From the NCBI GenBank assembly GCA_016927755.1, contig JAFGLZ010000222.1, positions 62,001 to 126,000 of the forward strand: a stretch of 64,000 nt of DNA, in the 5' to 3' direction. The DNA comes from Phycisphaerae bacterium (GTDB taxonomy: Bacteria; Planctomycetota; Phycisphaerae; UBA1845; JAFGLZ01). The notes under the pieces are model-generated. The model had not been told where the DNA came from. It searched no databases and saw only the letters and a list, made by a program, of their open reading frames with translations. The translations under genes were made by a program, and so were the position numbers. Below, piece by piece: positions 18,721-43,349 of the stretch. Position 1 is the stretch's first letter; every line of letters begins with the position of its first letter.

Positions 18721-18838
18721 CATGTCGCGCCCCGACCGCTCACATCCCCTGTCAATCATCCATTCACCCACGACCCACCCAATGCCAACGACCCTGCCCT
18801 ATCATGTCGCGCGGATACGACACGTCGCCTCGCGCCCC

Positions 18839-18919
18839 CTCCCCTTTCTCCCTTCCCTCTTCTTACTTCTCACTTCTCTCTTCCCCCGCCCCCTGATCGC
18901 CCAAACAACCCCCAACCCC
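18839..18919. repeat. Pyrimidine/C-rich tract, copy 1 (G4-prone on the minus strand)
   Basis: A pyrimidine-rich run leads into CCCCCGCCCCC and further C-runs (18883-18919). A block of about 26 bases around TTCTCACTTCTCTCTTCCCC (18867-18893) is repeated at 19429-19454. The minus strand holds five G-runs with loops of 1-6 nt. Confidence 0.65.
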
Positions 18920-19140
18920 GTCCACCGATCCCCTTATCCCTACTGGCCAAGAACAGAGCCAAAAGGAAGATAGCGCCATGACCGCCCCGAGAGATACCAA
19001 CCCGAAGCCACCGACGCCCCCGCGCCCCCGTCCCGTCAACATGCCCACACCGCGCGCCACCACCCCTCCCGGCACCCCCCAAGAAGGCATTCCCGACACG
19101 AAAGAAACGATCACACACACGCCGAGCCCCGAAAAGTGCT

Positions 19141-19375
19141 GCATTCCGATGTATCCCGGCGCATTCCGAGACATTTCGAGACATTTCGAGACACCGCTCC
19201 CACCCCTCTCCGATGTCGACGTGTCGACTCTTCGACGTTTCGACTTCTCCGCAGGGCATTTCGAGACACCACTCCTCCCGTTCCGACCTCCCCAAGTCCC
19301 CGGAACCGCCGCATTCCGCGGCATGCCGCTGCATTCCGAGACATTCCGGGACATTCCGGGACATTCCGAGACATC
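19141..19375. repeat. Phased decamer arrays (RCATTYCGRG) around a 4x8-bp TCGAC array
   Basis: Cluster I (19141-19195) and cluster II (19311-19375) consist of 10-bp units GCATTCCGAG, ACATTTCGAG or ACATTCCGGG placed exactly end to end, closing with ACACC or ACATC. A single head-plus-tail unit lies at 19257-19271. Between them TCGAC occurs at 19216, 19224, 19232 and 19240, an exact 8-bp period. The block lies 150-390 bases upstream of the DUF1080 promoter. Confidence 0.75.
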
Positions 19376-19428
19376 GCCCCCTCACCCGCACCCCGCCCCA
19401 CATCCTCCCGCCCTTTCCCTCTTCCCTC

Positions 19429-19495
19429 TTCTCACTTCTCTCTTCCCCCGCCCCCCGGTGCCCTTGCTCCCACCCAACCCCCCGAACCCCGCCCA
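19429..19495. repeat. Pyrimidine/C-rich tract, copy 2 (G4-prone on the minus strand)
   Basis: Second copy of the tract at 18839-18919, about 560 bases away, so the two flank the decamer arrays. The C-runs at 19445-19495 give at least six G-runs of three or more on the minus strand with short loops. Confidence 0.65.
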
Positions 19496-43158: not shown

Positions 43159-43349
43159 TGAATCACCTCCCGGGATGACAGGAACTGCCGGCTCGCAAGG
43201 ATGGAAACGACATAGCCTACAGGGCGAAATCGCCGTGTGGCAAGTCACGAAATCCGCCGGCTGCTCCGCCCCGGCGCAGGCTTCCAGCCTGCCAAGAAGG
43301 TCGGAAAGGATGACTGACGTATAGAGAGATGCCCCGACCACGGGCGGGC

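Follow-up and report, generated by a model that had tools for sequence, protein, structure and literature searches.

Results

A composite repeat lies upstream of a DUF1080 gene

Within the window, by which we mean the entire 64-kb stretch of DNA analyzed, the region upstream of a DUF1080 gene contains two kinds of short direct repeat, with unit lengths of 10 and 8 bp. Canonical decamers of the form RCATTYCGRG occur eight times, all on the + strand, as arrays of three, one, and four units that start at 19161, 19171, and 19181; at 19256 (a solo unit); and at 19331, 19341, 19351, and 19361, with exact 10-bp steps inside the arrays. The pentamer TCGAC occurs four times (starts at 19216, 19224, 19232, and 19240) at a pitch of exactly 8 bp. 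Two degenerate decamers in register precede each multi-unit array, and the array tails read ACACC at 19191 and 19266 and ACATC at 19371. The features of the region are as follows.

18837-18885, + strand: pyrimidine-rich heptamer-like tract CCCTTCCCTCTTCT..., preceding the anchor (TRF; 73% repeat of 19404-19482)
18925-18938, + strand: 5' anchor CCGATCCCCTTATC, one mismatch to the consensus CCGACCCCCTTATC, 236 bp before the first canonical decamer
18978-18980, + strand: ATG that lies 53 bp past the first base of the anchor and follows a Shine-Dalgarno (SD)-like purine stretch; the frame has no coding signal
19141-19160, + strand: two degenerate in-register decamers, GCATTCCGAT at 19141 and GTATCCCGGC at 19151
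19161-19190, + strand: decamer array 1, GCATTCCGAG ACATTTCGAG ACATTTCGAG
19191-19215, + strand: 25-bp linker ACACCGCTCCCACCCCTCTCCGATG
19216-19255, + strand: octamer block, 5 x 8 bp, carrying the four TCGAC
19256-19265, + strand: solo decamer GCATTTCGAG, 75 bp beyond where the final unit of array 1 starts
19311-19330, + strand: two degenerate in-register decamers, GCATTCCGCG at 19311 and GCATGCCGCT at 19321
19331-19370, + strand: decamer array 2, GCATTCCGAG ACATTCCGGG ACATTCCGGG ACATTCCGAG
19371-19380, + strand: tail unit ACATCGCCCC, of the type (ACATCGCCCM) that most commonly forms the 3' end of arrays genome-wide
19411-19447, + strand: second pyrimidine-rich heptamer tract, separating the element from the DUF1080 gene (TRF and repeat match)

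The tandem geometry described in an earlier, sequence-only reading of this DNA is confirmed. The interval given there (19141-19375) covers the arrays but leaves the 5' anchor outside. Its dismissal of CRISPR also stands: the 10-bp and 8-bp units abut directly, as opposed to repeats of ~23-50 bp with unique spacers. Lone decamers, with one mismatch allowed, are not in excess in the 64-kb window (32 versus 31.6 in shuffles).

Copies elsewhere in the genome share an oriented anchor

The decamer-pair pattern RCATTYCGRGRCATTYCGRG has 194 matches in the 9.25-Mb genome and its reversed-pattern control has none; the octamer pattern TCGACN3TCGACN3TCGAC has 68, again against none for the control, mostly at the same loci. 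BLAST of a 411-bp window segment against the same genome gave 89 matches, with 66-96% identity over parts of the element. Sixty stretches around matches were fetched, and these yielded 48 array clusters, the window copy included. K-mers shared by the sequences upstream of the clusters revealed a 14-bp anchor, CCGACCCCCTTATC, which (with up to two mismatches) precedes the arrays by 110-390 bp in 41 of the 48 and never changes orientation; of the seven clusters that lack it, five have upstream sequence of less than 300 bp. Exact matches to the 13-mer CGACCCCCTTATC number 26 in the genome, and the eight sites that fall outside known clusters lead to intact or decayed arrays, or a contig end comes first. 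When two mismatches were allowed, the 16-mer form of the motif had 84 matches compared with 10 for the control, which is consistent with roughly 50-80 copies of the element, an estimate that rests on searching the genome and on fetched loci totaling about 0.5 Mb.

Arrays run from one to six canonical units genome-wide (39, 35, 37, 15, 5, and 1 arrays, respectively), in agreement with the earlier proposal that the structure is modular and variable in copy number; the head and tail said to be common to the arrays are likewise supported. The first base of the array head is G in 99 cases and A in 33 (n = 132); that of the inner units is A (178 of 179). The units upstream of arrays are degenerate GCATTNCNGY types, and the unit that follows an array is most often ACATCGCCC[CA]. 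Fifteen modules were extracted, each running from the last decamer of an array through the linker and the octamer block to the next decamer. Eight have a 25-bp linker and nine a 40-bp octamer block, which makes 73-75 bp a common step from decamer to decamer. In many copies, an SD-like ATG lies ~65 bp downstream of the anchor.

We compared the more similar copies in seven pairs, together with 1.5-kb flanks. The match begins 3-35 bp before the anchor in five pairs and inside the element in two. The main matches between paralogous copies stop near the array ends, and homology does not reach into the flanking genes. Thus, the copies are dispersed units rather than pieces of larger duplications, with a discrete left end near the anchor and, at the last decamers, a right end that is diffuse. 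We saw no recent, near-identical copies.

Other repeats occur in the same regions. Pyrimidine-rich heptamer tracts (CCCTCTTC, CTTCTCA) lie on both sides of the window element and, in many copies, just before the anchor; the pyrimidine-rich sequence TTCCCTCTTCCCTCTTC has 12 occurrences genome-wide. Several elements (L121, L127, L093, L145, and L157) contain a separate palindromic repeat with GGTGTCAGGAACC or a close variant of it, and at L177 an inverted pair of GGTGTCAGGAACC accompanies one Y1 transposase gene, the arrangement expected of a REP and its RAYT. A further dispersed palindrome, GTAACGCAGGCTTCCAGCCTGCC, is found repeatedly in the vicinity of elements (at 43277 in the window and at L143, L130, L135, L153, and L156).

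Anchor and decamers are conserved between saturated spacers

Across 41 elements, the first ten anchor bases have a mean pairwise identity of 0.93, a value somewhat raised because the anchor was found from shared k-mers and the copies were then picked within two mismatches, and the first two canonical decamers have one of ~0.90, a value partly ascertained because copies were located with the decamer pattern. From 20 bp past the anchor, spacer identity is 0.29-0.31, compared with 0.289 expected by chance from base composition. In a profile of all in-register NCAT units, T5, C7, and G8 reach 0.73, 0.83, and 0.72, respectively. At the free positions, identity within one array (0.558 at Y6 and 0.538 at R9) matches the overall expectation (0.588 and 0.517), and recent homogenization is thus not the source of the shared consensus. 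Y6 is C in 85 of 93 first units and moves towards T in later ones. Because the units are not homogenized within arrays, recognition by something in trans is suggested, and this is probably what has kept the anchor and the decamers.

The conservation pattern therefore makes trans-recognized sites plausible, as the sequence-only reading supposed when it invoked protein binding, but the helical phasing on which it based that idea is unsupported. Anchor-to-array distances have neither a 10-bp (p 0.17) nor a 10.5-bp (p 0.32) phase. Inter-array spacings score alike for 8, 10, 10.5, and 11 bp because a few module lengths recur. Moreover, an 8-bp pitch is unable to hold sites on one face of the helix, and a fixed unit length would also arise from tandem duplication alone.

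The elements are intergenic and their neighbors share no theme

Genes were predicted with a simple codon-based caller made for this analysis. Only 1 of 323 BLAST pieces has its midpoint in a predicted gene, and the elements are thus nearly all intergenic. The smallest distance to a gene start is 82 bp for co-oriented downstream genes and 251 bp for divergent upstream genes; gene ends are approached more closely, to 31-66 bp in some cases, and elements also occur between convergent genes, down to 31 bp from their ends. In 29 of 42 cases, the gene downstream has the same orientation as the element, and the ++ and -- contexts, the sole orientation-informative ones, number 13 and 5, a modest bias. 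Neighboring genes include DnaK, acetate kinase, S2, MFS, and LptF. Twenty-five co-oriented downstream proteins match 53 Pfam families, and among the 25 families listed, one matches two members, so there is no common theme. The placement fits tolerated insertion outside promoters better than it fits a regulon. Since the copy in the window is one of ~50-80 and their downstream genes have no functional theme, the role at the DUF1080/DUF4838 genes suggested earlier finds no support. A contig end is no more than 500 bp away from 12 of 47 clusters, where 3% would be expected, and the elements explain part of the fragmentation of the assembly.

The family appears private to one lineage

The decamer pair was not found in 60 genomes of the same order, nor was a longer decamer pattern in 391 other genomes drawn across the phylum. 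The anchor 13-mer is present in five other genomes of the order, once or twice each, with no arrays adjoining. Among 84,980 species genomes, a collection that may omit the source genome's own records, 41 decamer stretches were found; this is not clearly above the ~30 expected by chance (4^-14 x 2^-6 x 514 Gb, both strands, base composition ignored), and inspection by eye found no linker, octamer block, or anchor with any of the 41. Thus, as far as these collections reach, the family appears to be private to the lineage of the source genome, with no member in the other genomes searched, all of which belong to families other than its own. The sequence-only reading, which called for a search of the rest of the genome and of relatives, had named the lack of any other copy in related genomes as grounds for abandoning it; that lack holds literally for the genomes searched, yet it does not overturn the feature, which is abundant in its own genome.

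Several of the outside stretches were inspected individually. One GGGACATTTC tandem, in a Rhizobiaceae metagenome-assembled genome (MAG; L080, ~5790), has a GlxA/AraC-type regulator gene on one side and an SDR gene on the other and is perhaps the operator of the adjoining regulator. A deltaproteobacterial MAG (L051, 3368-3513) has a long GGGACATTTC-like decamer array after a 1082-aa ORF, apparently unrelated to the present family. In a Planctomycetota MAG (L057, ~4585), tandem 11-bp GCATTCCGGGG units are similar in sequence and different in pitch. We rejected an origin as ends of IS21-type or other transposons, both because the 41 outside stretches are near the chance expectation and because, by inspection, the ORFs beside three outside GGGACATTTC tandems include no recognizable transposase. 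A viral or phage origin was also rejected, with no match to phages and 8 stray ones to viruses.

Discussion

Comparison with known repeats

The STRR of filamentous cyanobacteria are short, degenerate, heptameric tandem repeats found between genes. The present repeats are like them in being intergenic, degenerate, and tandem, but STRR are not known to have a composite architecture of an anchor and two pitches. More generally, short tandem units in variable copy number at many intergenic loci, as found here, characterize short dispersed intergenic tandem repeats. Such repeats are already known; here, units of two lengths are joined to a remote anchor of fixed orientation, and a limited literature search found no description of two-pitch arrays with such an anchor.

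The TAACTGA heptamer direct repeats of Beggiatoaceae form ~170 mostly intergenic sets of two to six copies, have no functional theme downstream, and are proposed binding sites of unproven function (PMC4679880). They share with the present element abundance, intergenic position, exact-pitch short direct repeats, varying unit number, and the lack of a downstream theme; however, they consist of a single 7-bp unit, lie mostly just upstream of start codons, and are shared with other phyla (PMC4679880), whereas the present element has 10-bp and 8-bp units and a distant conserved anchor, stays away from start codons, and is found in one lineage only. The GGGNATC heptamers of Xanthomonas and Nostoc likewise form dispersed, mostly non-coding tandem arrays of varying unit number, but they have G-quadruplex-forming G-tracts with four units preferred, and the portion of that account consulted mentions no anchor (PMC4692102); no comparable series of G-tracts is present in our decamer.

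REPINs are the best-described non-autonomous bacterial repeats in the literature that we found (PMC3116915). Like them and REP sequences, the present elements are extragenic, high-copy, dispersed, and apparently non-autonomous, and the conserved ends of REPINs are thought to be recognized in trans (PMC3116915, PMC2817692). In contrast, REPINs are inverted palindromic doublets tied to a RAYT gene (PMC3116915, PMC2817692), whereas the units described here are direct repeats without a palindrome. A REPIN-type hairpin was rejected, given the direct repeats, fold z-scores of -0.88 and +0.28, and inverted pairs that are short and chance-like. So was an association with RAYT, as none of the nine Y1_Tnp genes in the genome has decamers or the anchor within ~1.5 kb.

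Nature of the element

The copies are dispersed and intergenic, with a fixed orientation of anchor to array, a discrete left boundary, and conserved blocks between saturated spacers. The reading that we favor, with about an even chance of being right, is that 18925-19380 is one copy of a lineage-private, non-autonomous, non-coding element with trans-recognized blocks. Each copy carries the anchor at its left end, followed by a diverged spacer of ~100-350 bp and then by one or more array modules. A module opens with degenerate GCATTNCNGY units and a GCATTCCGRG head, goes on with ACATTYCGRG repeats, and closes with the ACATCGCCC tail, often followed by the 25-bp linker and TCGAC octamer block that lead to a further decamer. 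The element may have spread by copying as a unit with machinery supplied in trans; the anchor and decamers could be the sites recognized by that machinery or by a host DNA- or RNA-binding protein, and array number would change slowly through unequal duplication. Our searches identified neither a transposase for the elements nor a candidate recognizing protein, and no inverted pair joins both ends of the window copy, as the terminal inverted repeats of a MITE would. The SD-like ATG after the anchor is left without an account by this reading.

A host regulatory function, in which the arrays are bound cooperatively by a global regulator or nucleoid-type protein and the anchor is a second site or promoter, is unlikely but deserves consideration. 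It would account for the conservation of anchor and units against diverged spacers without homogenization, for the co-oriented downstream gene in 29 of 42 cases, and for the unit polarity kept across arrays (G in 99/132 heads, A in 178/179 inner units). However, the neighboring genes share no theme, the ++ and -- contexts differ by only 13 to 5, copies lie between convergent genes too, and no anchor-to-array phase exists; absence from all relatives searched would also be unusual for a core regulator.

We consider it improbable that these are ordinary short tandem repeats, grown by slippage and scattered by recombination, with neither function nor recognition. Such an origin would produce the tandem geometry, varying unit number, adjoining low-complexity pyrimidine tracts, and assembly breaks, but not units as alike between arrays as within one, preserved array polarity, or a non-repetitive 14-bp anchor co-conserved at a distance. 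Very doubtful, too, is the idea that transcription of the elements yields non-coding RNAs or leaders, with the anchor as promoter and the decamers as RNA-protein binding repeats: a near-invariant, oriented anchor does lie upstream of the arrays and the SD-like ATG follows it in many copies, but whole elements fold no better than shuffles (z -0.88, +0.28), no Rfam match was found, and TTATCC, the core of the anchor, shows no enrichment upstream of host genes, whereas TTGAC is enriched there. We rejected the anchor as a general host promoter on the same enrichment result. Finally, a decayed or frame-tolerant coding repeat, translated from the ATG through the decamers into the same cyclic decapeptide in every frame, is hardly tenable despite the SD-like ATG and a stop count between ATG and array of 4 in that frame versus 13 and 9, since C by codon position (0.416/0.411/0.443, compared with 0.26/0.25/0.54 in genes) gives no signal, paralogue substitutions are even over codon positions, indels are not multiples of three, and Y/R variation sits at fixed DNA positions regardless of codon phase; the sequence-only reading had named such a repeat as its other possible undoing, and the substitution, indel, and codon-position tests reject it.

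The dispersed, trans-recognized element that we favor is larger than first noted; it is composite and is not a feature of one promoter. It might, though we hold this only tentatively, represent a new class of mobile or regulatory element that is marked by one conserved motif at the left end and by polar arrays whose two pitches (10 and 8 bp) are incommensurate, and that has a dedicated binding protein, amplified in one lineage and absent from the rest of the order. Dozens of diverged copies in one genome provide a ready conservation map, in which the anchor and decamers are kept and the spacers are saturated. With this map, the search for the recognizing factor, and the question of whether the element is selfish or serves the host, become directly testable.
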